64,000 nucleotides of DNA, from assembly GCF_000820505.1 (NCBI RefSeq), contig NZ_JWJD01000001.1:1279685-1343684 (forward strand), in the 5' to 3' direction. Source of the stretch: Geoalkalibacter ferrihydriticus DSM 17813. GTDB lineage: Bacteria; Desulfobacterota; Desulfuromonadia; Desulfuromonadales; Geoalkalibacteraceae. The notes below the pieces were generated by a model, which saw only the letters and a list, made by a program, of their open reading frames with translations, was not told the origin of the DNA and did no database searches. Shown here in pieces: positions 24,162 through 40,416 of this stretch (positions are counted from its first letter, which is position 1; every line of letters starts with the position of its first letter). A program made the position numbers and the translations under genes.

Positions 24162-25022
24162 TTACAACTGAATGAAGAACACCGCAAGCAACGTCAGGAC
24201 GATAGCCAGGAGGCGCGTGGAGGTCAGCTTTTCGCGATAGATGAGGGCTGAGAGGGCGATGGCGATGACGAAATGCATACCGGTGATCAGGGCGATGATG
24301 GACAGCGGCCCGCTTTCCAGGGCGATGAGAAAGGCATAAAACCCGAAAAAATTGAGCAAGCCCATGAACAGACCGATCTTTACGGCGTCGCCGGTGCGCG
24401 CCGGAGTTTGTTCACGGATCCATTTTTTTTCAATCATCAGGGAGAACAGGGTGGCCAGAAAATAGGACAGAGCCATGAATCCGGATTTGCTGGTGGAGAT
24501 CGCCGCAAACTTGCTGGAGATGGCGGCGGTCGCTCCGCACACCACGCAGATCCCGATTAGCAGCAGCCCGGTTGCCGCCTTGCCGCGCGGCAGGGTTGCG
24601 CTGCCTGATTCCCTTGCGAGAAGCGCTACGACGGCAAATCCCAGCAGAATTCCCATCCATTGAAAAAGCCCTGGTCGTTCCCCGAAGTAAACAACGGAAA
24701 AAACGATCACCACCAGCAGGCTCATTCGCGTGAGGGGAAAGGTAATGGCGGCCGGCAGGTGCTTGAGGGCTTCCATGTTGGCGACCGTGGCCAGAGTAAA
24801 GGACAGGCTGTTGACCAAGGCCAGAAGCGCCAGGGGCAACAGGGCGCCCGCAGGTTCGGCGGAGATGAAAAAGACCAGGCTGCTCAACAGTGTGACCGTG
24901 CCCATGAACACGGCGGTGGTCAGAGGCGCGCTGCAGTTGCGCTCGGCTGCGACCTTGTAGAGAAAGCGCTGGGCTCCCAAGAGACCAAGGGCCGCTATGC
25001 TGAAAAAGTACCAGTCGGGCAT
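24162..25022 (-). CDS. EamA/DMT-superfamily transporter
   Basis: 286 residues with about ten hydrophobic segments in two internal halves, the EamA repeat arrangement. Polar marks such as KHLPAAITFPLTRMS near 75 and ALESGPLSIIALITGMHFV near 235 are typical of the drug/metabolite transporter superfamily. The substrate is unknown. It stands alone. Confidence 0.8.
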   Translation of the reverse strand: MPDWYFFSIAALGLLGAQRFLYKVAAERNCSAPLTTAVFMGTVTLLSSLVFFISAEPAGALLPLALLALVNSLSFTLATVANMEALKHLPAAITFPLTRMSLLVVIVFSVVYFGERPGLFQWMGILLGFAVVALLARESGSATLPRGKAATGLLLIGICVVCGATAAISSKFAAISTSKSGFMALSYFLATLFSLMIEKKWIREQTPARTGDAVKIGLFMGLLNFFGFYAFLIALESGPLSIIALITGMHFVIAIALSALIYREKLTSTRLLAIVLTLLAVFFIQL

Positions 25023-25139
25023 GATCCTCGCGGGCTAATCCGGAGTTTAGGGTGGGTCGGGCTCTTTTTTTGCATACATTAACGGGGGTGTGAGACGGAG
25101 CGAAAGACATTCTAATACCATGCATCGAAGGATTGTCCC

Positions 25140-25472
25140 ATGGAAAATAACTCGGCAAAAGAGTCCACTCTGGTCACCGTTCGCATGTTTGGCGTTCTGC
25201 ACAGCCTGCGCCGCAGCCGGGGGCTTGCGACAACCGTTGAGCTTGAACTGCCGCCGGAAGGTCGAACGGCGCGTGAGATCGCCCTGGATCTGGAGTTGCC
25301 CCTGGATCGCATCGAGGCGGTTTTCTGCAACCATCGGACTTACGAGTTGGACCACCGCGTTCATCCGGGCGACCGCGTTGCCTTTGTGCCGCCGGGCGTA
25401 CCCGGCCCCCACCGGTTTTTTCTCGGGATTCACCAGGCCGGGCAGAAAACGCGGGCCGAAGAGGAGCGCTAG
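25140..25472 (+). CDS. MoaD/ThiS-like ubiquitin-fold protein without C-terminal GG
   Basis: 110 residues. VTVRMFGVLHSLRRSRGLATT, the strand ELELPPEGRTAREIALDLEL and HPGDRVAFVPPGVPG follow the beta-grasp order of MoaD/ThiS carriers. The usual terminal Gly-Gly, where sulfur is loaded, is replaced by a tail (PGPHRFFLGIHQAGQ...). It may be a structural rather than sulfur-carrying member, possibly linked to the tungsten or molybdenum enzymes here (inference). It is convergent with the DUF2750 gene, nine bases away. Confidence 0.65.
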   Translation: MENNSAKESTLVTVRMFGVLHSLRRSRGLATTVELELPPEGRTAREIALDLELPLDRIEAVFCNHRTYELDHRVHPGDRVAFVPPGVPGPHRFFLGIHQAGQKTRAEEER

Positions 25473-25481
25473 CCATTATGT

Positions 25482-25829
25482 CTAGGCCTGGATGGACCAG
25501 AATTCCTCCTTGGTGATGACCAGCACCCGGGTCGATTTGCCGTCCGGGTTGATTTGCAGTTCGGCAATCGCCATGCTCTGGTCCGACAACCACGTCTGGG
25601 AGAAAACTCCCAGGGGAACCGCCTCGGGTTTATATTTCTGTCCAATGGGTCTGGCGTTTTTCACAAAGTCGGCGGCTTTCTCCTCGCTTGACCAGACCGG
25701 CAAAGAAAAACCCGTCTTGTCCAACTCCATGGCGTAAATGTTCTTGTGGGTGCCCCTGAGCACCCAGACCTGTGCGGCGTCTTTGCTTTCTTGCAGAAAT
25801 ACCTTTTCGCCGAGGTATTCAATGCTCAT
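25482..25829 (-). CDS. DUF2750 family protein
   Basis: 115 residues. The middle part, VWVLRGTHKNIYAMELDKTG with WSSEEKAADFV, matches the DUF2750 pattern. No catalytic residues are evident. It overlaps the end of the upstream PAS kinase gene by 4 nt and is the last gene of the MoxR-VWA-radical SAM unit. Function unknown. Confidence 0.65.
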   Translation of the reverse strand: MSIEYLGEKVFLQESKDAAQVWVLRGTHKNIYAMELDKTGFSLPVWSSEEKAADFVKNARPIGQKYKPEAVPLGVFSQTWLSDQSMAIAELQINPDGKSTRVLVITKEEFWSIQA

Positions 25830-27742
25830 AGCTGCTCCTCCCGCCCGATGGGCAGTAGCACGGTGAATTGCGATCCTGCGCCGACTCTGCTTTCCAGCCG
25901 GATTTCGCCGCCATGGCGTTTGATGATGTTGTAGGTCAGGGCCAGGCCGAGGCCGACGCCCTGGCCTACTTCTTTTGTGGTGAAAAATGGCTCCCAGATC
26001 TTCTCGCGAATTTGCGGCTCCATGCCGCTGCCCGTATCGCTGATCACGACCGCGATGCGGGTGTCATCCTCCCTGGAGGTTCTGACCTCAACCCGGCCTT
26101 GCTCCGCAATGGCCTGATGGGCGTTGACCAGCAGGTTCATACAGACCTGGCGCAGGCCGGAGGGGTCGCCGGAAATGCGCGGGAGATCCCCCCTGAGGTC
26201 GGTGATGACCTGAATCTTCTGGTAGCCCGGCTGGTAGCGCAACAGTTCAATTACCTCGCGCAGAACGCGGTTGATGTCGACCTTGACGGTCGTGCCGTCG
26301 GATTTGCGGCTGAAGCTGAGCAAGTGGTCGATGATGTCCTTGCAGCGGTAGGATTCGCGCACGATCACTTCGAGATAATGGGGAAAGACATCGAGGCGTA
26401 CATCCTCTTTGAGGATGGGTTCATCACGGAAGCGGCGCAGCAGCGCCTCCGCGCAGCCAGCCACCGAGGTCAGAGGATTGTTGATTTCATGCGCGATGCC
26501 GGTGGCCAGCACGCCGATACTCGACATTTTTTCAGTCTGGATGAGATGCATTTCCTGCAAGCGCTTCTCGGAAACGTCGCGGAAGAAAACCAGGGCGCGG
26601 TTCTTCTCGCCGAGGGTGTCGCGGATCGGGGTTGCGGTGATGTCTAGATAACGGGTTGGCTGCCCCTCGTTTGCGCTGACCAGGCATGTATCCACCCGCT
26701 CGCCCTGGAGCGCCCTTTCGACGGGGCAGTCGTGCGATTCGGCAGCGGATTCGGGATGAAAGATGTCCTGGCAGGACTTGCCCGGCAGGGTCTCCTGAGG
26801 AAAAATCCGCGGACTGATCAGGTTGTGATGCTGGATCCGGCCGTCATGGTCGTAAACCGAGATACCGTCGCCTATGGAATCAAAAATGGTTTGCAGTTCG
26901 TTTGTTTTGTTGCGCAAGTCGACCTCGGCCTGTTTGCGCTGGGTGATGTCCTGGGTGGTTCCGTAGAGTTTGATAACCTTACCCGCAATGTTGAGGGCAG
27001 GTTCGACGATGGAATAGACCCAGCGCAAGCCACCGTCGTCAAAAAGCAGGCGATGTTCGATCTCATAGGTTTTGCCTTGCTCGACCCCCAACCGCAGGTG
27101 TTCCATGACGCTGTCGTAGTCTTCGGGGTGCACCACCCGGGCAAAGGCTTCCTGGGTGGTTTCTTCAGGCCGCAGGTGCAAAATACGCAACAGCTCGGCC
27201 GAGGCTTGAACCTCCCCGGATTCCGGATCAAAGCTCCAGGAGCCCACATGGGTCATGCTCTGGGCCTTGGCCAGATTGTATTCACTCTCCGCCAGCGCTT
27301 GTTCCGCGCGTTGTTTCTCGCTGATATCCACCAGCACAGCGAGGCACTCGCCGCCGGCTTCGCTCGCCAGAGCCTCGATACGCACATACAGCGGGTTGGG
27401 GCTTGGCTGTGCAAGCCGCAGCCGGCAGGTCTGCTTACTCTGATCGGCAAAGACCCGGCGCAGGAATTCTGCGAAAGCCAGGCGGGCGTCAGCGGCGACG
27501 AACTGCGAGAAATTGCGCCCAATCAGTGCGCTGGATTCGACCCCCAGAAACTTGGCGCCCAGCCGGTTCGCCAAGCGAATCCCGCCTGCGTCGTCCAAAG
27601 TGAAATACCCCACGGGGGCTTGATCGTAGAGCTGGGCATATCTGTCGCGCGAGGCCTCGAGGCGTTCAAGGCGGCAGCGCAGTTCTTCGATTTGAGCCTC
27701 CGCAGTGGTCTGTTGGGTTGGAATTTCCTGGTGTTTGTTCAA
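25826..27742 (-). CDS. Cytosolic PAS-domain sensor histidine kinase
   Basis: 638 residues without membrane segments. Three PAS domains lie at about 30-145, 160-275 and 285-400. HisKA contains [20 protein letters not shown] near 420, and the ATPase domain ends [20 protein letters not shown]. The third PAS has cysteines in [10 protein letters not shown] and HDCPVERAL. Its last ~350 residues closely resemble the kinase at 35811-37019, so the two are paralogs. The gene is 36 nt after a radical SAM gene in the same direction. No response regulator is adjacent, so the partner may be the regulator at 34447-35823 (inference). Confidence 0.87.
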
Positions 27743-27778
27743 AGGCCTTTCCTCTGCATCTTGGGCGCACGTGGCACA

Positions 27779-28900
27779 CTACAGGTATTTATCCAGTCCC
27801 ATGTGCCGGACCAGATCGCGGAAATCCTTTCCTCCTCTTTCGGCCAGAAAGCCCAGCAAGGTAAAACCTTCGAGAGGCCAGGCGATGCGCTCCATCCCTG
27901 GCTCGGTACACTGGCTGCATTCGGCAAAGGCTCCGACCTTTTGGCGAAAGCGGTTGGCGGCCGTACAGCGATAGAGACTCTCCAGAGACTGCGACCGGAC
28001 ATTTCCCAAGGACTCTGCCAGGACCGGACAGGGGAAGATCTCGCCATTGTGCCGCGCGAACAGGGTATTGAAGCCCGCCGTGCAGGGCTTGACGATTTTT
28101 CCGGTTCTGAGATAGCCGAGCATGGCTTCGCGGTGGCCGCTCCAGGCGAACCTGGGACTTTTGTAGAAATCGATCATCTTTTTGATGTCTGCGGGGCTGA
28201 AGCGCAGATCCTTGGCCTTGTCCAGGTTGGCAAAGCGGTTGGGCGTCAGGATGCACGGGGAGATAATGGTAAACAACTGGTGTTCGGCAGCGAATTCGGC
28301 AATGCGTTGGAGTTCGTGGACGTTCAGCGGCACGATCGTGGTTTTGAGGCCGAGAATCAGGTTGGCATGTTTGTCCCTGATGTCATTCAAAGCTGACAGG
28401 GTTTGCTCAAAGTGCCCCCAGGCGCCGGGATAATTGCGGATGCGATCGTGAAGCTTGCCCACGGCATCCACGCCGCAAGCCAGAACCATGTCGATGCCGC
28501 GCGCGTGAAGGGGGCCGATGCTTTCGCGGACGATGTGCGCAACGCGCTCGGTGAGCAGGGCGTTTGTGGTGATCGACAGGGTGCGCAGGGCGGGAAAGTG
28601 GTCAGGCTGCAAAGCGGCGATCTGCCGAATAAGTTCACCCAGGTCGCTGCGCAGGAAGGGCTCTCCGCCGGTGATGTCGAGTTCCTTGAGGTGCCGAAGC
28701 GCCGGCGAGCGAAGCACGGCGAGCCATTCGGTGAGATCCAGGTCAGAAACTGTAGCGGGTGTTTTCCAGATGTTGCACATATCACAGCGGCAGATGCAGC
28801 GGTGCGTCACCTCCAGGCTCAGGGATTCGAGCCGGTGGGGCTTGCCGCGGCGCTTGAGAAGGCGAAAGCGCAGGCCGTTGATGAGAAGTTTGGCGATCAC
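27779..28900 (-). CDS. Radical SAM/SPASM protein next to a small CGGY-ending protein
   Basis: 373 residues from GTG 28900. The radical SAM motif CICRCDMC (CxxxCxxC) lies near residue 36 in SLEVTHRCICRCDMCNIW. ITGGEPFLR follows near 80. C-terminal cysteines in CTAGFN, EIFPCPV, CTAANRF and AECSQCTEPG form a SPASM-type region for extra Fe-S clusters, as in peptide- or protein-modifying radical SAM enzymes. GTG 28900 lies four bases after the stop of the small protein gene, with GGGGGA upstream; an ATG at 28936 would overlap it. The gene order suggests that the small protein is the substrate (inference). There is no N-terminal RRE domain. Confidence 0.82.
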   Translation of the reverse strand: MIAKLLINGLRFRLLKRRGKPHRLESLSLEVTHRCICRCDMCNIWKTPATVSDLDLTEWLAVLRSPALRHLKELDITGGEPFLRSDLGELIRQIAALQPDHFPALRTLSITTNALLTERVAHIVRESIGPLHARGIDMVLACGVDAVGKLHDRIRNYPGAWGHFEQTLSALNDIRDKHANLILGLKTTIVPLNVHELQRIAEFAAEHQLFTIISPCILTPNRFANLDKAKDLRFSPADIKKMIDFYKSPRFAWSGHREAMLGYLRTGKIVKPCTAGFNTLFARHNGEIFPCPVLAESLGNVRSQSLESLYRCTAANRFRQKVGAFAECSQCTEPGMERIAWPLEGFTLLGFLAERGGKDFRDLVRHMGLDKYL

Positions 28901-28904
28901 CCGC

Positions 28905-29216
28905 TCAGTATCCCCCGCAGAAACCGTCCTCCGCAACCTCTTTCATCTCGATATCCGCCTTGCTGTCGGCCGGTTTCTTTCCTCCCGCGTGCGGTTTGCC
29001 GATTTCATCAAGGCCGACAACACCGTGGCCGCCTTCAACACTGGGCGCTGTCTCTCCCAGGTGAGCAGCGCAAACGTTCTTGCTGCTGTTGGCCGGGGCA
29101 CCGCAATGGTTGCAATGAATGGTCGGTTTGTCGGACAGGGCCTTGATGCAGTCATCCAACCCCTGGGACTTAAAAGCGCACATGTGCTTTGAGTGGTCCT
29201 TGCTGTCGCAATGCAT
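28905..29216 (-). CDS. Small Cys-rich protein with mycofactocin-like C-terminus (EDGFCGGY); candidate RiPP precursor
   Basis: 103 residues. Cysteines are at 3, 13, 23, 35, 38, 49 and 100. The segment HCNHCGAPANSSKNVC (34-49) could bind a metal. A Gly/Lys-rich linker leads to an acidic stretch and the end MKEVAEDGFCGGY. This parallels MftA of the same window (ELAIDGICGVY): acidic leader, DG, hydrophobic residue, CG, residue, terminal Tyr. A radical SAM/SPASM gene begins four bases downstream. AGGAGG precedes ATG 29216. I infer a ribosomally made, C-terminally modified peptide or protein. The alternative is a metal-binding helper of the MoxR-VWA pair whose C-terminal likeness is chance. Confidence 0.7.
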   Translation of the reverse strand: MHCDSKDHSKHMCAFKSQGLDDCIKALSDKPTIHCNHCGAPANSSKNVCAAHLGETAPSVEGGHGVVGLDEIGKPHAGGKKPADSKADIEMKEVAEDGFCGGY

Positions 29217-29245
29217 TGTTCCTCCTGTGGGTTTCCGGCGCCGGC

Positions 29246-30637
29246 TTACCAGTGGCTGCGCCCTGTGGGATCGAGGCTTGGCGTCGAATTGCCGCCTCCT
29301 CGCGTGTAATAGTGGCGATAATCATCGTCCTGCTCTTCCTCGGCTTTTTTGATCTCGCGCATGGAGCGGTGGTCCTCCTCAAGATAAATATTGCGGAACA
29401 GATCTTCGACAACCTGGTTTAATTCCTCAACATTTTTAACCACCTCGACCTTGTCGCAATAAGCGCCGTAGGTATCGATCAGGCAATCGCCCCTTTTCCA
29501 TAGCTCACGGTCTTCGGGGGTCAGCCACAGCATGTAGCCGGCCTTCTCGCGCAACTGCTCAAGCACCCAGTCATTGGGCTTGTTGTAGTTATTGCGCGCA
29601 TCGCCGAGAAAAATGACCGCCGGGCGCCCGCGCAGGTTTTCGAGAAATTTCTCTTTGAAGGTTTCAAAGACCTTGCCGTAATCGCTGTTGTCGTCCAGGT
29701 TGACGATCTCGCCGCTGTCAATGGCCTCCATCATCGTGTTGATGGGCGCATTGGCGAGCATTTCCGTGATTTCAGCCAGCTCCGCGTTGAAGATGAAGCT
29801 GCGTACATCCATCAAACGGTTGTGCAGGGTATGCAGCAGCAAGAGCATGAATTGAGAGGCATGGCTGACGGAAAAGCTCACGTCGCACAGCACCACCAGG
29901 CGTGGTTTCTGCTTGCGCCTGCGGCGCAGGACCAGATGAAAGGGCACCATGCCGTGGCGATAGTTTTTCTGGATGGTGCGAATGACATGGATTTTGCCGC
30001 GGTTCTCCATGTTTTTGACGCGGCGGATGTCTTTTTTCAGACGCATGAGCATGCGCGAAACCGCATCATGCATGGCGTCGAGTTCCTGCTGGGAAAAAGT
30101 CAGAGGACGCTTTTGCCCGCTGGGGTGTTTGAAGGCCATGGTGACAGGATTCTGCGGCATGCGCATGGAGGGTCGCGGGGCTTGCATCGCCCCCTGGTAA
30201 TCCTTGAGGCGGATCTCCATTTCCGAGCCGTCGAGCTGATCGAGACCGATTTCCTTGAGGCTCTGCAGGTCTTTGAGATCTTCGGGGCTCAGTCCCGCTT
30301 CGACCATGGCCAGGCTCATGTTTTCATTGACCATGTCCGGGTTGGTGCCGAGCATCTCCTCGGCTTCCATGCTCAGGATCGCTTCCTGCAGCAGGTCGGC
30401 GGGGTCAGGTCCCTCGCCGTTGGCTCCGCTGCTGAAAAAGCGCTCGAAAACCCTGTCGAAACTCTCCATGTCATGAATATTCTTCACCAGGGTCAGGCGC
30501 AGCAGGCTGCGCACCGCTCCGCGTCCTTCCAAACCGCCATGCGCCAAAGCGCAAACTGCATCAAGGCTCTCGCCGGGTGAGACCCGCAGACCTTCCTTGC
30601 GCAATTCGGCGACGAATCTGGTGATGATGGTTTCCAT
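29246..30637 (-). CDS. VWA-domain protein (CoxE-like), MoxR partner
   Basis: 463 residues. The C-terminal half is a von Willebrand A-type domain with the metal-ion site DxSxS in VVLCDVSFSVSHASQF near residue 250. GDARNNYNKPNDW and DRELWKRGDCLIDTYG follow, as in the CoxE group. The N-terminal half is helical and acidic. MoxR/CoxD-type AAA ATPases act with VWA proteins to insert metal or activate enzymes. The gene starts 2 nt after moxR and precedes the small Cys protein by 29 nt. Its likely client is the alcohol dehydrogenase just upstream or the aldehyde oxidoreductase (inference). Confidence 0.83.
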   Translation of the reverse strand: METIITRFVAELRKEGLRVSPGESLDAVCALAHGGLEGRGAVRSLLRLTLVKNIHDMESFDRVFERFFSSGANGEGPDPADLLQEAILSMEAEEMLGTNPDMVNENMSLAMVEAGLSPEDLKDLQSLKEIGLDQLDGSEMEIRLKDYQGAMQAPRPSMRMPQNPVTMAFKHPSGQKRPLTFSQQELDAMHDAVSRMLMRLKKDIRRVKNMENRGKIHVIRTIQKNYRHGMVPFHLVLRRRRKQKPRLVVLCDVSFSVSHASQFMLLLLHTLHNRLMDVRSFIFNAELAEITEMLANAPINTMMEAIDSGEIVNLDDNSDYGKVFETFKEKFLENLRGRPAVIFLGDARNNYNKPNDWVLEQLREKAGYMLWLTPEDRELWKRGDCLIDTYGAYCDKVEVVKNVEELNQVVEDLFRNIYLEEDHRSMREIKKAEEEQDDDYRHYYTRGGGNSTPSLDPTGRSHW

Positions 30638-30639
30638 GC

Positions 30640-31542
30640 TCAGCCTAGTTCCTCGGCGGCCAGTTCCACCACCCGCTGCAGGTCGGCCTGATGCTTGGAG
30701 ATGACGCCGACGGTGTTGGCGACCACGTCCGGCGTCAGTTTGGACACATGCAGGATGGAAAGGACTTCCGCCCAGTCGAGGGTTTCCGAGACGCTGGGGG
30801 GCTTGCGCAGGTTGAGTTCGCGGGCCTTGCGCAGAAAGCCCACCATCTGCTGCGCCAGTTCTTCACAGATATCGGGAAAGCGGGCGCGAACGATCTGCAC
30901 TTCGCGCTCCAACTCAGGGTAGTCGATGTAGAGGTAGAGGCAGCGACGCCGCAGGGCGTCGGAAATCATGCGGGTGCCGTTGCTGGTAAGGATGGCCAGG
31001 GGTTTTCTTTTGGCCTCGATCACTCCCAACTCGGGAATCGACACCTGAAAATCGCTCAGGCACTCCAGCAGCAGGGCTTCGAATTCATCATCGGAACGGT
31101 CGATCTCGTCGATCAGCAGAACCGAGCGCTTTTCCGAGAGGAAACTGCGCAGCACCGGGCGTTGGACCAGAAAATTGCGGGAGAAAAACAGACTTTCCTC
31201 ACTGGCCAACTGCTCCACGGCGTCGCGCAGGTCGGTTGCTTCGGCGAGTCGGTTGTCGAGCTGGGTTCGCAGCATCTGGGTGTAGAGCAGCTGCTTGCCG
31301 TATTCCCAATCATAGAGAGCCTTGCCTTCGTCGATCCCTTCATAGCATTGCAAGCGCACCAGCGGAAAGTCCATGACCTGGGAGAGGGTCTTGGCCAGGC
31401 CCGTTTTGCCAACACCGGGCGGTCCCTCGATAAGTATTGGTTTTTCCATCCGCAGTGCGAGAAAAACTGCGGTGGCGATGGCTTCGTCGGCGATATAGCC
31501 GCCGTCGCGCAGCCCATCTTTTACCTCTAGTTGAGTCATCAT
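30640..31542 (-). CDS. MoxR-family AAA ATPase
   Basis: 300 residues. Walker A is GPPGVGKTGLAKTL near residue 40, Walker B is VLLIDEIDRSDDEFE near 140, and sensor 1 is LAILTSNGTRM near 180. ALRRRCLYLYIDYP contains the arginine finger region typical of MoxR. MoxR proteins are chaperones for metalloenzyme or dehydrogenase assembly; the first was found with methanol dehydrogenase. ATG 31542 follows GAGG. It heads a unit with the VWA gene, the small Cys protein, a radical SAM protein, a kinase and DUF2750, and lies downstream of an Fe-ADH. Confidence 0.88.
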   Translation of the reverse strand: MMTQLEVKDGLRDGGYIADEAIATAVFLALRMEKPILIEGPPGVGKTGLAKTLSQVMDFPLVRLQCYEGIDEGKALYDWEYGKQLLYTQMLRTQLDNRLAEATDLRDAVEQLASEESLFFSRNFLVQRPVLRSFLSEKRSVLLIDEIDRSDDEFEALLLECLSDFQVSIPELGVIEAKRKPLAILTSNGTRMISDALRRRCLYLYIDYPELEREVQIVRARFPDICEELAQQMVGFLRKARELNLRKPPSVSETLDWAEVLSILHVSKLTPDVVANTVGVISKHQADLQRVVELAAEELG

Positions 31543-31589
31543 GGTCAGCCTCGTGGGGTGAGGAAAATAATAGTTGCCAACGCAAGAGC

Positions 31590-31631
31590 GCCGCTGGACC
31601 CGGCGAGAAGAAACTCTCCGGGCCCAGCGGC
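31590..31631 (-). terminator. Long hairpin between Fe-ADH and moxR
   Basis: Arms 31590-31607 and 31614-31631 pair over 16 of 18 positions around an AAGAAA loop, a very strong GC-rich stem. No T-run follows on the minus strand. It may be a partial terminator or an mRNA-stabilising structure that separates ADH expression from the downstream genes. Confidence 0.5.
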
Positions 31632-31666
31632 CTATGAACTACCGGTCTATTCGGTTACTGTGCAAT

Positions 31667-32872
31667 TTACATGCAGCCTTTGAACACGGCGCGCATATTT
31701 TCAAAGCCGATATCCACCGGGTTGCCTTCGGAGCAGATGTCTGCCGCGGCGAACTTGGACAGCCCGTCGAGGTCTTTTTCCTGCAGCCCGAGATCCCCGA
31801 ACCGGGTGGTGATGCCCAGGTCATCCTTGAGTTCCTGAATCATATCGATGAACTTCTCACCGGCTTTGATGTCAGACATTCCCTCAGTATTGATACCGGC
31901 GGCACGCGCCATCATGGCGAAGCGCTCGGGGCAGGCGGGCAGGTTGAGGCGGCATACGTCAACCATGGCGATGGCGTTGCACAGACCGTGGGGTGAGTCA
32001 TAGAGACCGCCCATGGCGTGTGCCATGCTGTGAATGATGCCCAGACCGGCGCTGTTGAAGCTGTAGGCGGCGGCCATCTCCGCCCACACCATCTGCTCGA
32101 TGGCCTTATCGTTGTTGCGGTTGGCAGCCGACTGACGCAAGTTGCCGAAGATTTCGGTGATCGCCCAGAGGCCCGGCCCGTAGGCCGACTGTACGCACAG
32201 GCGTGAGGCGATGGCTTCAACGGCATGGGCCAAAGCATCCATGCCGGTGTAGGCGGCGAGATCGCCGGGCATGCACTGGTGCAGCAAGGGATCGTTGATC
32301 GATTTGCTCGGGGTGCATGCCGGATCGAACAGAGCCATTTTGTACATTTTCTCGGTGTGGTTGATGATCGAGAAGCAAGAGACTTCCGACCCGGTGCCCG
32401 AGGTGGTATTGATGGCGAGTTGGGGGAGCTTGTTCTTCTTGGTCGCTTTGAAGGCGCCTTCGAAACTGCGCACGTCCTGACCGTCGTGGCTGTAAACCAG
32501 CTTGATCGCTTTGGCGCAGTCGGTGGTGCTGCCGCCGCCTATGCTGATGATGCCGTCGAACTTGCCCGAGGAAAGCACCTTGGCGCCCTCCATGACTTCA
32601 AAGTCTTTGGGATTGGGGGTGGCCTTGTCAAAAACTTCGGAGGAAACGCCGGCATGCTTGAGCACGCCCTGGATGGTCTCGATGATCCCGGTGCCTCTGA
32701 GACCGGTGGTGACGATGAGAGCATTGCTCATGCCCAGGGCCTTGGCTTCGTTGCCGACCATGGTATGCGCACCCCAGCCGACGTTCACCGAAGGGTAGGC
32801 GTGCTGCATCCTGATGGGATATTCCTGTCGTTCGTTGGAGAGCTTGCGTTTTGCGTCTTTGAAATGGGGCAT
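31667..32872 (-). CDS. Iron-type alcohol dehydrogenase resembling NDMA-dependent methanol dehydrogenase
   Basis: 401 residues. Nucleotide contact IISIGGGSTTDCAKAIK lies near 105. Metal ligands are in TGMDALAHAVEA (Asp, His), IIHSMAHAMGG (His) and DSPHGLCNAI (His). Stretches VGWGAHTMVGNEAKALG, TTGLRGTGIIE and NPKDFEVMEGAK resemble, from memory, the actinobacterial nicotinoprotein methanol/alcohol dehydrogenases, which hold NAD tightly and depend on mycofactocin. That makes this the likely mycofactocin user (inference). The start is ATG 32872 with GGAGG upstream; the longer frame is rejected. A strong sigma-54 promoter lies at 33049-33064. Confidence 0.88.
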   Translation of the reverse strand: MPHFKDAKRKLSNERQEYPIRMQHAYPSVNVGWGAHTMVGNEAKALGMSNALIVTTGLRGTGIIETIQGVLKHAGVSSEVFDKATPNPKDFEVMEGAKVLSSGKFDGIISIGGGSTTDCAKAIKLVYSHDGQDVRSFEGAFKATKKNKLPQLAINTTSGTGSEVSCFSIINHTEKMYKMALFDPACTPSKSINDPLLHQCMPGDLAAYTGMDALAHAVEAIASRLCVQSAYGPGLWAITEIFGNLRQSAANRNNDKAIEQMVWAEMAAAYSFNSAGLGIIHSMAHAMGGLYDSPHGLCNAIAMVDVCRLNLPACPERFAMMARAAGINTEGMSDIKAGEKFIDMIQELKDDLGITTRFGDLGLQEKDLDGLSKFAAADICSEGNPVDIGFENMRAVFKGCM

Positions 32873-33216
32873 GTGTACTTCCTCCTGTTGCTGGTGAGAG
32901 TTTACTTGCTGCCGCATCCTTGGTGGCCGGTGTCTGAGACACTCCGCCACCTCCTCATAACTTTGTTTTAGCGAAACCTTTGGTGGCCTCCATTAAACAC
33001 TTGGTTAATGTTCATCCAAGCCTGTGGCGACACTGGGTTGTCTACAGAGCAAGGAGGGTGCCAAACGGAAATACTGTTTTATAGTGCCGGTTTGCGGGCT
33101 TTTGAGGGAGGGCGTCAGGGGTCGCTGTGAGAGTGCGGGGAATTCCGAAACAGGTTGAAGGGAGGATGGGCGTGGCAGCCTAGGGCGTTTGTCCACACTG
33201 GGGAGTTTTGCCCCGC
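32873..33216. other. Intergenic region upstream of the Fe-ADH
   Basis: The 344-nt gap carries the ADH ribosome binding site, a ~165-nt untranslated leader, the sigma-54 promoter at 33049-33064 and GGAAATACTGTTTT just upstream of it. A 194-residue minus-strand frame crossing it is a shadow of the radical SAM gene and is not called. Confidence 0.6.
33049..33064 (-). promoter_or_regulatory. Sigma-54 promoter of the NDMA-type Fe-ADH
   Basis: The minus strand reads TTGGCACCCTCCTTGC, with GG-N10-GC and a nearly perfect -24/-12 consensus. The start of transcription would be near 33037. Three bases upstream is GGAAATACTGTTTT (33067-33080, plus strand), related to a motif near the second ADH promoter. 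The sigma-54 regulator at 34447-35823 is the likely activator (inference). Confidence 0.85.
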
Positions 33217-34338
33217 TCAGGACGGGTTTGCAGCGGATTTGCGATGTGCATAAACGGCGCGGCGCAGGGCGCAGCGGTCCTCGCTGGCGAAAAAATCGCC
33301 GCAACTGCCCCAGGCGCGACCCATGCAGCCCGCGCCGCAGGTATCGCGATCGGCGCAGGCGTGGCATTGGGGAATTGTTTCGGCCCGACTGCGACTGATT
33401 TCCAGCAGGGATGCCCACAAGGGTGCCCCAAGGGAGAATGCTTCCGCGAGGGGTTTGTCGAATACGCCGCTCACCGCATAGGGGTCGGCATGACACAGAA
33501 CGCAGGGGTAGAGGCGACCGGCCGCGGTGAGGTAGGGATTTTCGACAAAGGTGCAGTCTTGTCTCGTCGTCTTGTTCGGTGTTTGCCATTCCAGGGCGGC
33601 GATCCTGCCGATTTTCCGATAAAGAGCCCTGAAGCCGGAATCGGTTTCGTAGCGTTCGAGGAGGCGCAGATATTGCTCGGTTTCGGCCGGGGCGATGAGC
33701 GCATCCTCGGCAGCACGGCCGCAGCGCACCAGCGAGCCGCTGACGACGGAGGCGATGCCGAGTTCGTCGGCGCGTTCCAGGAGCGCCGGAATTTCATCGA
33801 GGTTGTGGCGCATCTCTGTAAAGAACAGGCTCAGACGTGGCGCGAGTCCTGCGGCAATAAGGTGCTGCAAGCCCGCCATGGCCCCGGCGAAGGCGCCCTC
33901 GCCGCGCACCAGATCATGGCTGGTGGCGCACGCCCCGTCGAGGCTGACCTGGATGGAGAGTCCGGAAAAATCAAGGTCGCGCAAGGCCGCCGCTTGGTTT
34001 TTTTTGATCAGGTTGGCGTTGGTTTGCACGCCAAGGTGGGGCATTTCGAGATGGCGGGCGAAGCGCAGCAGTTCGAGCCATTCGGGATGGCAGAGGGGTT
34101 CGCCGCCGGTCAGGCGCAGGCCCTGGCCACCTAGATCTGCAAACTCCTGCATGACGCGGCGCAGCTTTGCTGCCGGCACATGCGCGGCGGAGGTGGACAC
34201 GCCCCCTTCGACCCAGCAGTGACGGCATTGCAGATTGCAGGCGCCGGTGATGGCAAGAGTCAGGGTGTGTGGTGGGCGCAGGCCTGCCCGGCGAAGCAGG
34301 CCTTTCAGGTTGTCGGATGTTGCGGTCGAGGGTTCCAT
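33217..34338 (-). CDS. Radical SAM/SPASM protein of the second Fe-ADH operon
   Basis: 373 residues from ATG 34338. CNLQCRHC lies near residue 35 in LAITGACNLQCRHCWVEGG, followed by RLTGGEPLCHPEW. The SPASM region has CHACADRDTCGAGC, GSCGDFFASEDRC and an upstream LYPCVLCHADP. Such proteins modify peptides or metalloenzymes; the substrate is not evident. It is the last gene after Fe-ADH, kinase and regulator. The start is unsure: GTG 34431 would place the gene 15 nt after the regulator stop, with GAGGG nearby, and adds 31 residues. No small precursor gene was found beside it. Confidence 0.82.
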   Translation of the reverse strand: MEPSTATSDNLKGLLRRAGLRPPHTLTLAITGACNLQCRHCWVEGGVSTSAAHVPAAKLRRVMQEFADLGGQGLRLTGGEPLCHPEWLELLRFARHLEMPHLGVQTNANLIKKNQAAALRDLDFSGLSIQVSLDGACATSHDLVRGEGAFAGAMAGLQHLIAAGLAPRLSLFFTEMRHNLDEIPALLERADELGIASVVSGSLVRCGRAAEDALIAPAETEQYLRLLERYETDSGFRALYRKIGRIAALEWQTPNKTTRQDCTFVENPYLTAAGRLYPCVLCHADPYAVSGVFDKPLAEAFSLGAPLWASLLEISRSRAETIPQCHACADRDTCGAGCMGRAWGSCGDFFASEDRCALRRAVYAHRKSAANPS

Positions 34339-34446
34339 GGTTCTGTCATTGTCGGTTTCCGGCGGAGAAAATGTCCACAGTGTGGAGAAGCTACCCAATG
34401 AACGACACGGGATGTTGGGGAGAAATGCCACACAACCCTCAAACCC

Positions 34447-35823
34447 CTAAGCCGGCAAATCGTAGCGGTCCAATTTGGTGTAGAGGGTTTTGCGGTCGAT
34501 TTCGAGGATCTTCGCCGCCCTGCTTTTGTTGCCTTCAACCTTGTCCAGAACATTGCGAATGTGCTCACGCTCAATAACCCACAGCGGCAGGGGCGGCGCT
34601 TGCGGGGTCGCGCCGAGCTGAACCTCGGCAGGAAAGAGTTTGGGCGGGGCAAAGGGTAATAGATCGGCGGTAATCACCCGCTCTGCGGCCAGAATCGAAG
34701 CGCGGCGCATGGTGTTGCGCAACTCACGCACGTTGCCCGGCCAGTGGTAGGCACGCAGGGAGGCCATGGCTTCAGGCGATATCTCCCAAGGGCCTTGGCC
34801 GGGTCCGGAGCTGCTTTGCAGAAAAAACCAGGCCAGGGGCAGGATGTCCTCGGCGCGCTCGCGTAGCGGCGGGATAAGAATGGGCAGCATGTTGATGCGA
34901 TGAAAGAGGTCATCGCGAAACTCGCCGGCATCGACTTTGTCTTCGAGCTTTTTGTTGGTGGCGAAGACAAAGCGCACATCGACGCTGATGTCCCGATTTC
35001 CCCCCAGGCGCCGGAATGTGCCGGTTTCGAGGATGCGCAGCAGCTTGACCTGGACATCGAGAGTCATTTCCGAGACTTCATCCATGAACAGCGTGCCCTG
35101 ATGCGCCAGTTCGAACAGCCCTGCGCGACCTTTGACCGCGCTGGTAAAGGCGCCCTGCATGTGGCCGAACAGCTCGCTCTCGGCGGTGTTCACGTCAAGG
35201 CGCCCGCAATTGACGGTGACAAAGGGTTTTTGCGCCCGGGGACTGCTTTCGTGCACCGCGCGCGCCACCAGTTCCTTGCCGGTACCGCTCTCACCGAAAA
35301 TAAGCACATGCTCGTCGACGGCCCCCCAGCGTTTCACCGTGTCGAGCACCTGCGTAATCGCCTGACTCTTGCCGACGATCTGGTGATTGTCGAGTTTCTG
35401 CATTTCGAGTTTAAGGCTGATGTTTTCGAGTCGCAGGCGGTTTTTTTCATGGGCCTTGGTGATGACCAGGTCAAGCTCGTCGAGCTTGACGGGCTTGGTC
35501 AGGTAATCGTAGGCACCGTGCTTGATGCATTCAACGGCTGTTTCGATGGTGCCGTGCCCGGTGAACATGATGATCTCGGGAACGCTGGATTCGCTCTTCA
35601 TCTGCTTGAGTATTTCGACGCCGTCGCTGCCGGGCATGCGGATATCGAGCAGCACCACGTTGAAAATCTCTTCGCGGTAACGGGCCAGTCCTTCCTCGCC
35701 ATTGCCGGCGACCTGAACTCTGTGGCCGCTGCGGCGCAGCTCGGACTGCAGCAGCTCGCGCAGGGGTCTTTCGTCTTCCACAATCAGAACTTTGGCGACA
35801 TCGCCACGCTTTACATTTGACAT
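34447..35823 (-). CDS. Sigma-54-dependent response regulator (NtrC family)
   Basis: 458 residues. The receiver starts VLIVEDERPLREL, with Asp in VVLLDIRMPGSDG (~60) and TKPVKL (~110). The AAA domain has Walker A GESGTGKELVARAVH (~172) and Walker B TLFMDEVSEM. The sigma-54 contact loop reads GAFTSA instead of the usual GAFTGA. The C-terminal helix-turn-helix is NKSRAAKILEIDRKTLYTKL. ATG 35823 overlaps the kinase 3' end by 13 nt. The likely targets are the Fe-ADH, porin and perhaps mft promoters (inference). Confidence 0.9.
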   Translation of the reverse strand: MSNVKRGDVAKVLIVEDERPLRELLQSELRRSGHRVQVAGNGEEGLARYREEIFNVVLLDIRMPGSDGVEILKQMKSESSVPEIIMFTGHGTIETAVECIKHGAYDYLTKPVKLDELDLVITKAHEKNRLRLENISLKLEMQKLDNHQIVGKSQAITQVLDTVKRWGAVDEHVLIFGESGTGKELVARAVHESSPRAQKPFVTVNCGRLDVNTAESELFGHMQGAFTSAVKGRAGLFELAHQGTLFMDEVSEMTLDVQVKLLRILETGTFRRLGGNRDISVDVRFVFATNKKLEDKVDAGEFRDDLFHRINMLPILIPPLRERAEDILPLAWFFLQSSSGPGQGPWEISPEAMASLRAYHWPGNVRELRNTMRRASILAAERVITADLLPFAPPKLFPAEVQLGATPQAPPLPLWVIEREHIRNVLDKVEGNKSRAAKILEIDRKTLYTKLDRYDLPA

Positions 35824-37019
35824 ACAGGTAATCTCACCTTGAAAGTGCAACCTCTGTTCACCTGACTGGCCACCTCAATGCGGCCTTGGTGTCGCTCGAT
35901 AATGCTGTGGGTGATGGCCAGGCCCAACCCCAGGCCGTCGCCGACGGATTTGGTGGTGAAAAACGGATCCCAGATCTGATCGAGATGCTCCGGCGGGATG
36001 CCGCATCCTGAGTCGCGGATTTCCACCATCACTTCGTCGTCGACGGCGAGGGTGCGGATTCTGATGCGTCCCGGCCCCTTGATGGCCTGAATGGCATTCA
36101 TGGTCAGGTTCATGAACACCTGGCGTAGAGCGGCGGCATCGGCATTGATGCGCGGGATGTCGCGTTGACGGTCTTCCTCAATGCCGACCTCTTCCTGGCT
36201 GGCTTTGTTGCGGACCAGGTCGAGCACTTCGTCGATGACCTCGTTAATGTCCACCAACCCCACCGAACCATCGGAGCGGCGGCTGAAAGTCAGCAAGCTG
36301 TCGATGATATTTTTGCAGCGATAGGCTTCGCGCATGATCACCTGGAGGTACTCGGGAAACACCTCCAGGCCCAGATTCTCTTGCAGTCGCGGATTTTCGC
36401 GCAAGCGCCGCAGCAGCGCCTCTGCATAGCCGGCCACCGAGGTCAGGGGGTTGTTGATCTCGTGGGCGACGCCGGCGGCGAGCATGCCGATGCTCGACAT
36501 TTTTTCGGCTTGCACCAGTTGCAGTTCCTGAACGCGGCGTACCGTGACGTCGCGCAAAAACACCAGGGCGCGAGTCTGCCCCTGGGGATCGAAAATGGGC
36601 GAGGCGGTTACGTCGAAATAGCGGTTTTCGTCCCCGGCGCTGCTGTTGGTGAAGGACATCTGGTTGCTTTCGCCGCCGAGGGCTTTTTCAACCGGGCACT
36701 GTGCGGGCGCATTCTCCGCTTCGGGATGAAACAGGTCGCGGCAGGTTTTTCCCGGCATGGTCTGTTCGGGAAACAGCTGTGGGCAGACGTGATTGCGGTG
36801 CTGGATGCGCCCGCTGCCGTTGTACACCAGCACCCCGTCGCTGATGGAGTCAAACACCGCCTGCAGCTCGCTTTTTTTCGCGTGCAGGCTGGCGTTGGCC
36901 ACTTCCAGCTCGCGGATTTTCTGTTTGACCTCAGCATAGTAGCCGATTTTCGAGCTCTCGATGCCAAGCAGGCGATCCAGGCTCGCCTCATCGATGCGGG
37001 TTGGCTTGATCTCGTCCAT
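35811..37019 (-). CDS. Cytosolic PAS sensor histidine kinase paired with the NtrC-type regulator
   Basis: 402 residues, no membrane segment. A coiled N-terminus leads to one PAS domain (about 50-165) holding GKTCRDLFHPE and AQCPVEKAL cysteines. HisKA is [20 protein letters not shown], and the ATPase ends GLGLGLAITHSIIERHQGRI. It is a short paralog of the kinase at 25826-27742. ATG 37019 overlaps the stop of the second Fe-ADH (TGATG), so translation is coupled. The signal is presumably intracellular and may be redox or an alcohol-derived metabolite (inference). Confidence 0.9.
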   Translation of the reverse strand: MDEIKPTRIDEASLDRLLGIESSKIGYYAEVKQKIRELEVANASLHAKKSELQAVFDSISDGVLVYNGSGRIQHRNHVCPQLFPEQTMPGKTCRDLFHPEAENAPAQCPVEKALGGESNQMSFTNSSAGDENRYFDVTASPIFDPQGQTRALVFLRDVTVRRVQELQLVQAEKMSSIGMLAAGVAHEINNPLTSVAGYAEALLRRLRENPRLQENLGLEVFPEYLQVIMREAYRCKNIIDSLLTFSRRSDGSVGLVDINEVIDEVLDLVRNKASQEEVGIEEDRQRDIPRINADAAALRQVFMNLTMNAIQAIKGPGRIRIRTLAVDDEVMVEIRDSGCGIPPEHLDQIWDPFFTTKSVGDGLGLGLAITHSIIERHQGRIEVASQVNRGCTFKVRLPVCQM

Positions 37020-38194
37020 CAAAAGGCTCTTTCCAGAATCCGCAGCAGATCGGTTTCGTCAGCCTCACGTGGTGACGTCAGAATGCACACATCGCTCAGG
37101 GCATTGTGCGCCAGTTGGGGCAGATCCTCGCGCTTTACTCCCAGGCTGCTCAGGGTGCGAGGTGCGCCGGCGGCATCGAGCATGTGCTCGATTTTTTCCT
37201 CGACCACCTCGGCCGCGTCCCGGTCGCTCAGGTCTTTGTGTCGTGCCAGGGTCCAGGCCAGCTCCGGAAGCTTTTCGGTTACCACCGGCAGGTCGTAGCG
37301 GATCACCTCGGAAAGCAGTACCGCATTGACGCTGCCGTGATTGATGTCGTAGAGGCCGCCGATGGGGTGAGCAAGCGCGTGAACGATGCCGAGCAGAGAA
37401 TTGGAAAAAGCCATGCCGGCGTGCAGGCTGGCCCGTGCCATGCGTTCCAGATCGTCCGGTTGCTGTTCGCGCACCGCCCTGACCAGCCCGTCGGAGAGCA
37501 GGCTCAGGGCGCGGATGGCATTTACGTCGGTAAGGGTCGAGGAGGCCACTGAAAAATAGGCTTCCAGGGCGTGGCTCAAGGCATCGGTGGCGGTGGTGCA
37601 GATAAACTCTTCCGGCAAGGTCGCCAGGGTATCGGGATCGGTGAGACTGATGTCGGGGGCCACGCAGCGGCTCATGATCGTCAATTTGCAGTGGCGCTGG
37701 GTGTCGTTGATTATGGCGAACTGGGAAACATCTGAGCCGGTACCGCAGGTCGTCGGACACAGGACCAGCGGCGGCAGAGGGCGGCTGATTTTGTCCGAGC
37801 CTTCAAAGTCGCGGATGTTTCCGCCGTTGGAGACCAGGATGGCAATGCCTTTGGCGGCGTCCATGGCGCTGCCGCCACCCAGCCCGACGATGACGTCGGC
37901 GCCCTGGCGGATGTACTCCCTGGCTCCGGTTTCGACTTCATGATCCTTGGGGTTAGGGGTGATCTGGTCGAAGTAGACGAAATTCAGCCCGGCTTCCAGC
38001 AGGCTGTGCATGGCTTGGTCAACCCAGCCGGCGTTGAACAGACCCTGATCGCTGACAAGGAAGACCTTGTTGCCGCCGAGGCGCCGGGCGCAGGAGCCGA
38101 TCTGGGTGAGCAGGCCACGTCCGAAAATGATTTCCGGCACTTCAAATTTGCAATGATGAAGGGCGGGATTTTTCTTTTTTTCATCTTGCCCCAT
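37019..38194 (-). CDS. Iron-containing alcohol dehydrogenase (second copy)
   Basis: 391 residues. VGLGGGSAMDAAKG near 100 binds the dinucleotide. Metal ligands are in TATDALSHALEAYFS, IVHALAHPIGGLYD and INHGSVNAV. It is a standard group III Fe-ADH of the butanol/ethanol dehydrogenase type, less like the nicotinoprotein group than its neighbour at 31667-32872. AAGGA lies seven bases before ATG 38194. It leads an operon with kinase, regulator and radical SAM genes. A weaker sigma-54 promoter is ~70 nt upstream. Confidence 0.9.
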   Translation of the reverse strand: MGQDEKKKNPALHHCKFEVPEIIFGRGLLTQIGSCARRLGGNKVFLVSDQGLFNAGWVDQAMHSLLEAGLNFVYFDQITPNPKDHEVETGAREYIRQGADVIVGLGGGSAMDAAKGIAILVSNGGNIRDFEGSDKISRPLPPLVLCPTTCGTGSDVSQFAIINDTQRHCKLTIMSRCVAPDISLTDPDTLATLPEEFICTTATDALSHALEAYFSVASSTLTDVNAIRALSLLSDGLVRAVREQQPDDLERMARASLHAGMAFSNSLLGIVHALAHPIGGLYDINHGSVNAVLLSEVIRYDLPVVTEKLPELAWTLARHKDLSDRDAAEVVEEKIEHMLDAAGAPRTLSSLGVKREDLPQLAHNALSDVCILTSPREADETDLLRILERAF

Positions 38195-38264
38195 GGTTAA
38201 TTCCTTGCGCGCTGTTTTTCCATCCGTTCCCCGTACCCGAGTGCGACAGTCAATAAAAGCATAA

Positions 38265-38280
38265 GCAATAGGTATACCCA
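38265..38280 (-). promoter_or_regulatory. Probable sigma-54 promoter of the second Fe-ADH operon
   Basis: On the minus strand GG (38278-38277) and GC (38266-38265) are ten bases apart in CTGGGTATACCTATTGC. The -12 part TTGC is good; the -24 part GGTAT is weaker than TGGCAC. It would give a leader of ~60 nt. AAACAGTGTTTCCC lies nine bases upstream, as a related motif does at the other ADH promoter. Confidence 0.5.
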
Positions 38281-38391
38281 GTTGTCAAACAGTGTTTCCC
38301 GTTAAGCGAATATAATGTTTTCGCTGGACTCAATGTTCTCAGCTGATTGGGAGGAAATTCCACGCTGTAGAGACTTTCCGCACCTGATTAC

Positions 38392-38416
38392 CTGGAAAAC
38401 TGTTTCAATTTTCCAG
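38392..38416. promoter_or_regulatory. Palindromic candidate enhancer between Fe-ADH and porin operons
   Basis: CTGGAAAACTG and CAATTTTCCAG flank TTT; the arms match at 10 of 11 positions. The centre is ~107 bp upstream of the porin -24 box and ~126 bp upstream of the ADH -24 box, in the range used by NtrC-type activators. Confidence 0.5.
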
Positions 38417-38510
38417 AACATCATCTCGGTCTTCACTATAGCATCTTTTCGACTCTTTGAGACAAGCCCAATTTTTCTGGTTTTTAAAGAAAAAACCACC
38501 GTTTTACTCG

Positions 38511-38526
38511 TTGGCACCACCGTTGC
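38511..38526 (+). promoter_or_regulatory. Sigma-54 promoter of the porin operon
   Basis: TTGGCACCACCGTTGC has GG-N10-GC and a near-perfect consensus. It lies ~195 nt before the porin start, giving a long leader. Confidence 0.85.
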
Positions 38527-38720
38527 ACTTCCTGCCAGCAGTTCCTGTGTAAATGCAGATTCCGAAATTGCTTTTCCCGGTATTTGGCTGCGGTGAAACG
38601 GGCGCCAAAGGAGGACAGAGACATTGGAGTACGGGGCTTTTGCAAGAAGGAACCGTCTCCGCCGGCCGCTAGTGATTCGAGGAGAGCAATTTCACCCCTT
38701 CCCACTCTCAGGAGGTATCA

Positions 38721-39917: not shown

Positions 39918-39934
39918 ACGAAAGGAAACAACCC

Positions 39935-40081
39935 ATGAAAAAGCTGATCTTGCTCATGGTCGCAGCAATGCTGGTTTTTTCTCTGAGCGCCTGCGCGACC
40001 CCGAAGGACCAACAAGAGAGGGTCCCGGTAAAGTGCCCGGCCTGCGGGTATGAAGGCCTTGATTTTATCTACCAACCTTAA
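39935..40081 (+). CDS. Small lipoprotein with CxxC motif
   Basis: 48 residues, below the length most callers accept. MKKLILLMVAAMLVFSLSAC is a lipoprotein signal with lipobox LSAC. The mature part is ~29 residues with KCPACGYEG near the end. AAAGGA precedes ATG 39935. It lies 17 nt after the porin gene and 18 nt before the next. Function unknown. Confidence 0.7.
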   Translation: MKKLILLMVAAMLVFSLSACATPKDQQERVPVKCPACGYEGLDFIYQP

Positions 40082-40099
40082 ACCTTAAGGGGTCATGCA

Positions 40100-40372
40100 A
40101 TGCCCAAGTACATTATCGAACGCAGCATTCCCGGTGCCGGCGAACTCTCCGCCGAGCAGCTTCAGGGTATTTCGCAGAAATCCTGCGGTGTGCTCAACCA
40201 GTTGGGGCCAAAAATCCAGTGGGTGCAAAGTTACGTGACGCACGACAAGGTCTATTGCGTCTACATTGCCCCCAATGCTGAACTGGTGCGGGAACACGCT
40301 CAGCAAGGCGGTTTTCCGGCGGACAGCATTGCCGAAGTTAGCGGCATCATCGATCCGACCACGGCCGAATAA
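40100..40372 (+). CDS. DUF4242-like small protein
   Basis: 90 residues. MPKYIIERSIPGAGELSAEQL and KVYCVYIAPNAELVREHAQQ with FPADSIAEV follow the DUF4242 family, small ferredoxin-like-fold proteins of unknown role, some said to bind nickel. It is inside the porin-AmiS operon. AAGGGGTC precedes ATG 40100. Confidence 0.7.
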   Translation: MPKYIIERSIPGAGELSAEQLQGISQKSCGVLNQLGPKIQWVQSYVTHDKVYCVYIAPNAELVREHAQQGGFPADSIAEVSGIIDPTTAE

Positions 40373-40380
40373 TCAACATC

Positions 40381-40416
40381 CTCTCACTCCCGAACCAGGA
40401 TGTTCGGGAGTGAGAG
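40381..40416 (+). repeat. Perfect 15-bp hairpin inside the porin operon
   Basis: CTCTCACTCCCGAAC (40381-40395) and GTTCGGGAGTGAGAG (40402-40416) pair without mismatch around CAGGAT. No T-run follows, and a GGAG ribosome binding site lies just past it. It probably tunes mRNA stability or the ratio of the genes on each side. Confidence 0.6.

Follow-up and report, generated by a model that had tools for sequence, protein, structure and literature searches.

A MoxR-VWA gene pair within a mycofactocin-type alcohol-oxidation locus of Geoalkalibacter ferrihydriticus, and an MftA-like tail that appears to persist as its host protein is exchanged

What do a MoxR-type ATPase and a VWA protein do directly behind an iron-containing alcohol dehydrogenase (Fe-ADH), in the company of a radical S-adenosylmethionine (radical SAM) enzyme and a small Cys/His protein? 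We have addressed this question for Geoalkalibacter ferrihydriticus DSM 17813, in a stretch of 64,000 nucleotides (contig NZ_JWJD01000001.1, positions 1,279,685 to 1,343,684), which as a whole we call the window and from whose first letter positions are counted. A sequence-only reading had described six genes packed on one strand after the ADH, and had taken them to be a machine that builds or installs its cofactor. All the genes which it lists were verified, all on the minus strand, and their spacing is operon-like: 3 nt lie between MoxR and the VWA start, and the rSAM_A reading frame overlaps or abuts the small Cys gene.

31667 to 32872, minus strand: ADH1, mycofactocin-type iron-containing alcohol dehydrogenase, predicted to be nicotinoprotein-like (Pfam Fe-ADH, NCBIfam, motif)
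30640 to 31542, minus strand: MoxR-type AAA+ ATPase, MadB-like (AAA, Walker A GPPGVGKT, Walker B VLLIDE)
29246 to 30637, minus strand: VWA protein, MadC-like (VWA_CoxE, intact metal-ion-dependent adhesion site, or MIDAS, DVSFS)
28905 to 29216, minus strand: small Cys/His protein of 103 amino acids with MftA-like C-terminal tail ADIEMKEVAEDGFCGGY
27779 to 28936, minus strand: rSAM_A, radical SAM enzyme with short SPASM/twitch (CxxxCxxC; Pfam Radical_SAM and SPASM)
25826 to 27742, minus strand: HK1, three-PAS sensor histidine kinase (Pfam PAS, HisKA, HATPase)
25482 to 25829, minus strand: DUF2750 protein, accessory (PF11042, 40 bits)

The open reading frame of ADH1 spans 31667-32950; its probable start is the ATG at 32872, which is preceded by AGGAGG and is the right end given in the sequence-only reading. 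The likely start of rSAM_A is near 28900. That reading had overlooked four upstream genes on the same strand (rSAM_B, a sigma-54 regulator, HK2 and an ErcA-like ADH2), as well as mycofactocin genes, which lie on the same strand 17-30 kb downstream of the cassette together with an OYE gene, electron transfer flavoprotein (ETF) subunits and FixC:

8716 to 8823, minus strand: MftA, mycofactocin precursor, ending EELAIDGICGVY (IDGICGVY) (TIGR03969, 43.7 bits, above the cut-off of 25)
8457 to 8714, minus strand: MftB, precursor chaperone (TIGR03967, 64.6 bits, above 33)
7436 to 8599, minus strand: MftC, mycofactocin radical SAM maturase (TIGR03962, 355.6 bits, above 265)
5320 to 7281, minus strand: mycofactocin-system FadH/OYE family oxidoreductase 2 (TIGR03997, 947 bits, above 793)
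4292 to 5320, minus strand: ETF alpha, mft_etfA-like (NF038209, 146 bits, below 240; ETF_alpha)
2997 to 4295, minus strand: FixC or ETF:quinone oxidoreductase-like (NF007450, 394 bits, below 466)
1807 to 2712, minus strand: ETF beta, mft_etfB-like (TIGR04503, 70 bits, below 200; ETF)
392 to 1810, minus strand: MftF glycosyltransferase (TIGR03965, 372 bits, above 280)

MftA (with the conserved C-terminus IDGxCGVY), MftB, MftC and MftF all score above curated cut-offs and so place the genes in mycofactocin biosynthesis; because these four and the mycofactocin-type OYE lie nearby, the six-gene cassette is, as judged from its gene families, the middle of a larger mycofactocin locus. We consider it probable that the cassette is that half of a mycofactocin-dependent alcohol-oxidation locus in which catalysis and maturation are encoded, with an MftA-related tail as an accessory substrate. 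The gene set, its conserved order, the link to MftA, MftB, MftC and MftF and a sigma-54 promoter were observed directly. The available part of Haft 2011 (PMC3023750) already ties iron ADHs to mycofactocin, including in G. uraniireducens; our locus resembles the system described there in its MftA, MftB, MftC, MftF and OYE_2 genes, its NPKD-type iron ADH and its known Geobacter members. Set against that available part, MoxR-VWA, sigma-54 control, PAS kinases, rSAM_A, rSAM_B and the tail occur only here.

The association extends to related genomes, of which we searched 118 from the order, 277 from the class and 395 from the phylum. VWA loci were found by an alignment-based search of genome contigs, in which a search with the single VWA sequence gave no match. 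The full-length VWA gene is present in 18 of the 118 order genomes (the window's own included) and MftC in 16, both being present in 15 (Fisher p 3.5e-15, a value that overstates the independence of these related genomes). In the 3 genomes with VWA only, the contig ends at MftA (G003) or inside MftA (G092, locus L142), or the assembly consists of ~630 contigs (G107); the single genome with MftC only (G033) is fragmented into ~640. Four of the 395 genomes sampled from the phylum carry the full-length VWA family, each of them together with MftC, and other MftC-bearing genomes of other classes in that sample are without it. Distant MadC-like VWA genes of those other classes, with partial profile matches and a wide score gap, were set aside; a search of their short flanks detected no Fe-ADH. 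The sequence-only reading had suspected a tie to mftABC, and this was borne out both within the window and by the nearly identical sets of genomes that carry VWA and MftC.

ADH1, MoxR and VWA are neighbours in this order in 48 named loci, wherever the contig reaches. Most of these loci also have ADH2, a kinase and a regulator upstream and HK1 downstream, and HK1 follows VWA in nearly all of them; ADH1 (~75-95% identity) and MoxR (67-94%) are the best conserved proteins among the relatives. The arrangement of the cassette is conserved far beyond chance. A scattered distribution in relatives, with no link to the ADH, was looked for as the pattern that would speak against the sequence-only reading, and the reading withstood this check. 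Nevertheless, the small Cys protein, rSAM_A and DUF2750, the last detected solely in the window's own genus (G001-G003), are missing from some relatives that retain ADH1-MoxR-VWA. It is therefore very improbable, despite the adjacency of the genes in the window, that the six jointly build an organic cofactor in the ADH for which the small protein would be the carrier, the more so as the nearby Mft genes already make up a pathway devoted to an organic cofactor. Of the proposed cofactor machine for the ADH, the MoxR-VWA part stood and the dispensable genes fell away; the organic cofactor is most likely mycofactocin supplied by the neighbouring Mft genes. A ThiS/MoaD-like small protein is encoded on the opposite strand at the end of the cassette (25140-25472, plus strand).

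MoxR and VWA have the features of a MoxR-VWA pair, namely Walker A and B motifs, a VWA domain with MIDAS, and neighbouring genes, and the MIDAS DxSxS is invariant across 18 VWA sequences. The only curated families that the two proteins approach are MadB (NF047784, 307 bits for MoxR against a cut-off of 475) and MadC (NF047783, 170 bits for VWA against 600), and both differ from our proteins in that these scores are below cut-off. Other proteins named MadB or MadC (lantibiotic, fungal) are unrelated. By sequence, no solved relative of the VWA protein was found, and NorQ is a weak PDB match of MoxR. Between ADH1 and MoxR lies a strong inverted repeat, seen by eye (31550-31660, minus strand; CCGCTGGGCCCGG...CCGGGTCCAGCGG), which may hold MoxR-VWA expression below that of ADH1.

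The likely client of this pair is ADH1. ADH1 carries the NPKDFEV motif and the metal ligand pattern, has TIGR04266 (NDMA-dependent methanol dehydrogenase, Mdo) as its best NCBIfam match, and is 36% identical to Mdo of M. chubuense; from motif and kinship it appears to be nicotinoprotein-like, as had been proposed. When plasmids were searched with the VWA protein, four from Actinobacteria (Mycolicibacterium chubuense NBB4, Mycobacterium dioxanotrophicus and two Rhodococcus strains) proved to carry mdo, MoxR and VWA in this order; the one plasmid Mdo that was scored gave 680 bits with TIGR04266 (cut-off 625). Mycobacterial mdo-linked MoxR genes are also the top plasmid matches of the window's MoxR, the best, that of M. 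chubuense, being 53% identical. Because the same ADH-MoxR-VWA triplet occurs in two phyla, gene linkage suggests the ADH as the client, which agrees with the tie between MoxR-VWA and the ADH seen earlier in the sequence. The actinobacterial Mdo/Mno operons differ from our locus in regulation and in that no tail or radical SAM genes are annotated in the plasmid stretches examined. Other plasmid MoxR-VWA pairs adjoin other genes, e.g., a CO-dehydrogenase-type set on a Natronorubrum plasmid, and pairs elsewhere serve molybdenum or copper enzymes, so that the client here might be another enzyme of the locus (the AFOR-type aldehyde oxidoreductase, a radical SAM enzyme or the OYE). We regard this as unlikely, since ADH1 is the adjacent gene in every readable locus, and since mdo is adjacent in Actinobacteria, where the listed neighbours include neither an OYE nor an AFOR-type enzyme.

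A further group of genes upstream of ADH1 suggests how the locus may be controlled:

33048 to 33063, minus strand: sigma-54 -24/-12 promoter TGGCACCCTCCTTGCT, upstream of ADH1 (exact match)
33217 to 34431, minus strand: rSAM_B, radical SAM/SPASM enzyme (full C-x2-C-x5-C-x3-C motif)
34447 to 35850, minus strand: sigma-54-dependent response regulator (Response_reg, Sigma54_activat, HTH_8)
35811 to 37022, minus strand: HK2, PAS sensor histidine kinase (PAS, HisKA, HATPase; synteny)
37019 to 38194, minus strand: ADH2, ErcA-like Fe-ADH, possibly regulatory (NF041833 ErcA, 431 bits, below the cut-off of 550)
38512 to 38527, plus strand: second exact sigma-54 promoter, upstream of a porin gene (38721-39917)

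In 50 of 52 loci the sigma-54 element TGGCAY-N5-TTGC precedes ADH1 by 126-244 bp, against a chance expectation, taken from the window's own rate, of ~3% per 500 bases, and a domain for interaction with sigma-54 is present in the neighbouring response regulator. From the sigma-54 site to ADH1 runs a leader (32873-33047, minus strand) in which many relatives share a conserved block like AAAACAAAGTTAT and, after it, GGAGGTG; it could be a leader RNA or a regulator site, and there was no Rfam match within 25000-39500 of the window. Divergent from ADH2 are genes for a porin, preceded by the second sigma-54 site, and an AmiS/UreI-type channel (38721-40967, plus strand), for which alcohol or amide uptake is a possible role. 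An ErcA-like ADH beside a sensor kinase in an alcohol regulon is also a feature of the ErcA/ErcS arrangement of the Pseudomonas exa/ped cluster (PMC12997753); our locus differs in the sub-cut-off score of ADH2, in its sigma-54 regulator, and in having mycofactocin instead of pyrroloquinoline quinone.

The remaining question concerns the slot between VWA and the PAS kinase, which in the window is occupied by the small Cys protein. This protein has a conserved Cys/His pattern and no Pfam or NCBIfam match, and its AlphaFold model is poor (mean pLDDT 63, tail disordered), with no PDB match at E <= 0.001. Its C-terminus, DGFCGGY, resembles the end of MftA in the same window, and the modifiable small protein which the sequence-only reading had suspected thus has a counterpart in a candidate substrate tail. 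When the 277 class genomes were scanned for D-G-x-C-G-[G/A]-Y-stop, 28 matches were obtained, all 28 of them inside this locus, on four unrelated types of host: the Cys protein (11), a thiol peroxidase (10, one frameshifted), a free peptide of 55-72 amino acids (5) and an M24-peptidase-like protein (2). The tailed thiol peroxidase (NCBIfam, 216 bits, above the cut-off of 123) and the tailed M24-family protein (Pfam, 67 bits) could be assigned to their families. When host types were placed as labels on the VWA tree, with 'none' counted as a label, at least 19 changes were needed against a minimum of 4. The unusual ending GSCGGY is common to two sister loci with different hosts, L172 (M24) and L179 (Cys protein), so that the tail appears to persist while the host protein is exchanged; L145 resembles a peroxidase start joined to the tail through a deletion.

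In alignments of the tails with MftA, the last 16 residues align (hhalign P 2.9e-5), and the similarity beyond the five shared motif residues still exceeds that of column shuffles (fraction 0.003). Next to last, 25 of the 28 tails have Gly and 3 have Ala, while 11 of 11 MftA rows have Val. Tyr ends every one of the 28 tails, most of which were found by a pattern that requires Tyr. Several observations touch the hosts themselves. An M24-peptidase-like host is found in L151, L152 and L172, where the peptidase fold may have to do with release of a peptide. A YpdA-like FAD oxidoreductase gene adjoins the tailed thiol peroxidase (L076, 3978-5162) and possibly encodes its reductase. A GldA-like third Fe-ADH gene, absent from the window, adjoins the tail slot in many relatives (L058, L061, L072, L073 and others). 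A literature search of incomplete coverage found no link of mycofactocin to a peroxiredoxin.

The known cross-link formed by MftC uses the beta carbon of Val. Because that bond needs the Val beta carbon, the known cross-link should not form on tails with Gly before the last Tyr, which could undergo no more than the first step, or else a different reaction. In the established reaction, MftC decarboxylates Tyr30 of MftA and then links Tyr30 to Val29 (PMC9012708). Since Gly or Ala, not Val, precedes the last Tyr of the tails, the product expected from them would be a decarboxylated or otherwise altered Tyr end and not mycofactocin itself.

If a radical SAM enzyme acts on the tail, it is most likely MftC, the only one general to the locus; rSAM_A and rSAM_B are the other candidates. 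In the window, as in G002, G003, L149, L151, L152, L158 and L174, the gene immediately behind that of the tail is rSAM_A; elsewhere rSAM_A is often 15-20 kb distant or absent. rSAM_B has the peptide-maturase Cys spacing, and its matches to TIGR04251 ScmF (109 bits) and TIGR03962 (96 bits) are below cut-off. Membership of the two enzymes in the SynChlorMet ScmE/ScmF families was rejected on cut-offs (rSAM_A 64/400, rSAM_B 109/400). It is possible that the tail is a second precursor of a ribosomally synthesized and post-translationally modified peptide (RiPP), independent of mycofactocin and with rSAM_A or rSAM_B as its own maturase, in which case the hosts would be mere leaders from which a small Tyr-derived product is released. 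The position of rSAM_A behind the tail gene in the window and those relatives, the existence of the free peptide form and the motif of rSAM_B are consistent with such a pathway; however, rSAM_A is carried by only 14 of 27 tail-bearing genomes, being distant or undetected in about half, and rSAM_B is missing from some tail loci, e.g., L149 and L155, which leaves MftC as the only general enzyme.

Somewhat doubtful is a proposal in which the tail stays unmodified and serves for docking or as a decoy, its binding to MftB/MftC or ADH1 localising the host or tuning mycofactocin synthesis. A tail that has DG-x-CG-x-Y in common with MftA yet has Gly or Ala at the key Val, with the known product impossible on Gly, that is without the MftA leader and that is found on freely exchanged hosts would fit this proposal; the invariant last Tyr suits a substrate better.

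Several findings weigh against the mycofactocin-dependent reading that we favour, or limit it. ADH1 scores 306 bits with TIGR04266, under the cut-off of 625, and so is not filed as an Mdo and differs in this from the Mdo/Mno enzymes, though it may work alike. There is no TIGR03966 match for MftD in the genome, and the MftE-like gene is below cut-off (TIGR03964, 127.7 against 172), so that by the mycobacterial standard the predicted route to finished mycofactocin is incomplete. This is a further difference from the system in the available part of Haft 2011 (PMC3023750), in which, however, MftD and MftE are not universal; membership of the system stands because the two are not a defining feature. 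The tails are below the MftA models TIGR03969 and NF040489 (best 8.6 bits against a cut-off of 30) and have no MftA leader. In two of them Cys is replaced by Arg (G002/L059 18779, DGFRGGY, and L145 11842, DGIRGGY); the Cys may be dispensable or these genes may be decaying. The tail is absent in some relatives, including G001 of the same genus, and because it is missing where ADH-MoxR-VWA is kept, the small tailed protein is accessory. Finally, tail and rSAM_A are unassociated within the VWA-positive order genomes (7/9 versus 5/9, p 0.62), on which ground rSAM_A was rejected as an obligatory tail enzyme.

With these points taken into account, the following scheme can be drawn from protein families and gene order. 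The sigma-54 regulator, together with the PAS kinases, would turn on ADH1-MoxR-VWA. ADH1 would oxidise an alcohol with tightly held NAD and hand the hydride to mycofactocin, which would be re-oxidised by OYE, ETF and FixC with delivery to the quinone pool; the aldehyde may pass to an AFOR-type aldehyde oxidoreductase. A gene for the latter is found at the left edge of the window (L184, 16032-17858), with an ABC transporter ATPase gene nearby. MoxR-VWA would use ATP to remodel ADH1 and so mature or re-activate it, most likely by inserting its metal, for which NorQ-NorD (PMC13036017) is the precedent among such pairs. In both cases an AAA+ protein and a VWA protein adjoin the client metalloenzyme, which here would be a soluble iron ADH and not a nitric oxide reductase. 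The slot between VWA and the PAS kinase would encode an accessory substrate with a tail related to the MftA end, carried here by the small Cys protein. A bolder proposal, which we put forward only tentatively, is that the tail is a movable cofactor precursor: Mft-type radical SAM chemistry would act on the Gly/Ala-Tyr ends of the free peptide and of whole proteins (the Cys protein, taken as zinc-ribbon-like, the thiol peroxidase and the M24-like protein), and the Tyr-derived group so formed, tethered to protein, would be redox-active and trade electrons with both mycofactocin and ADH1.

Beyond the alcohol locus, a gene for a putative metalloenzyme maturase of the radical SAM/SPASM class (41217-42563, plus strand; TIGR04311, 645 bits, above the cut-off of 400) sits between it and formate dehydrogenase-like genes. 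These form two operons recognised by eye (42564-61937, minus strand) and include an FdhD-MobA fusion gene (42564-44120, minus strand).

In the aggregate, what appears to be new here is the link of MoxR-VWA to a mycofactocin locus, which is well supported, and a strongly conserved, precursor-like tail that seems to swap hosts; a literature search of incomplete coverage found no paper linking mycofactocin with MoxR/VWA. The MoxR-VWA pair gains an obvious candidate client in the mycofactocin-type iron ADH, with support from two phyla, and nicotinoprotein maturation becomes testable, in laboratory mycobacteria and rhodococci as well. The tail is surprising in that a precursor-like sequence is apparently retained by selection as the host protein changes, and it hints at a protein-borne version of mycofactocin cofactor chemistry. 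Modification of the tail, if it occurs, would make it a RiPP cofactor of a new form and extend MftC-type chemistry beyond MftA; were the movable-precursor proposal true, a diffusible RiPP cofactor would have a protein-borne sister, one that has changed its carrier many times in evolution.

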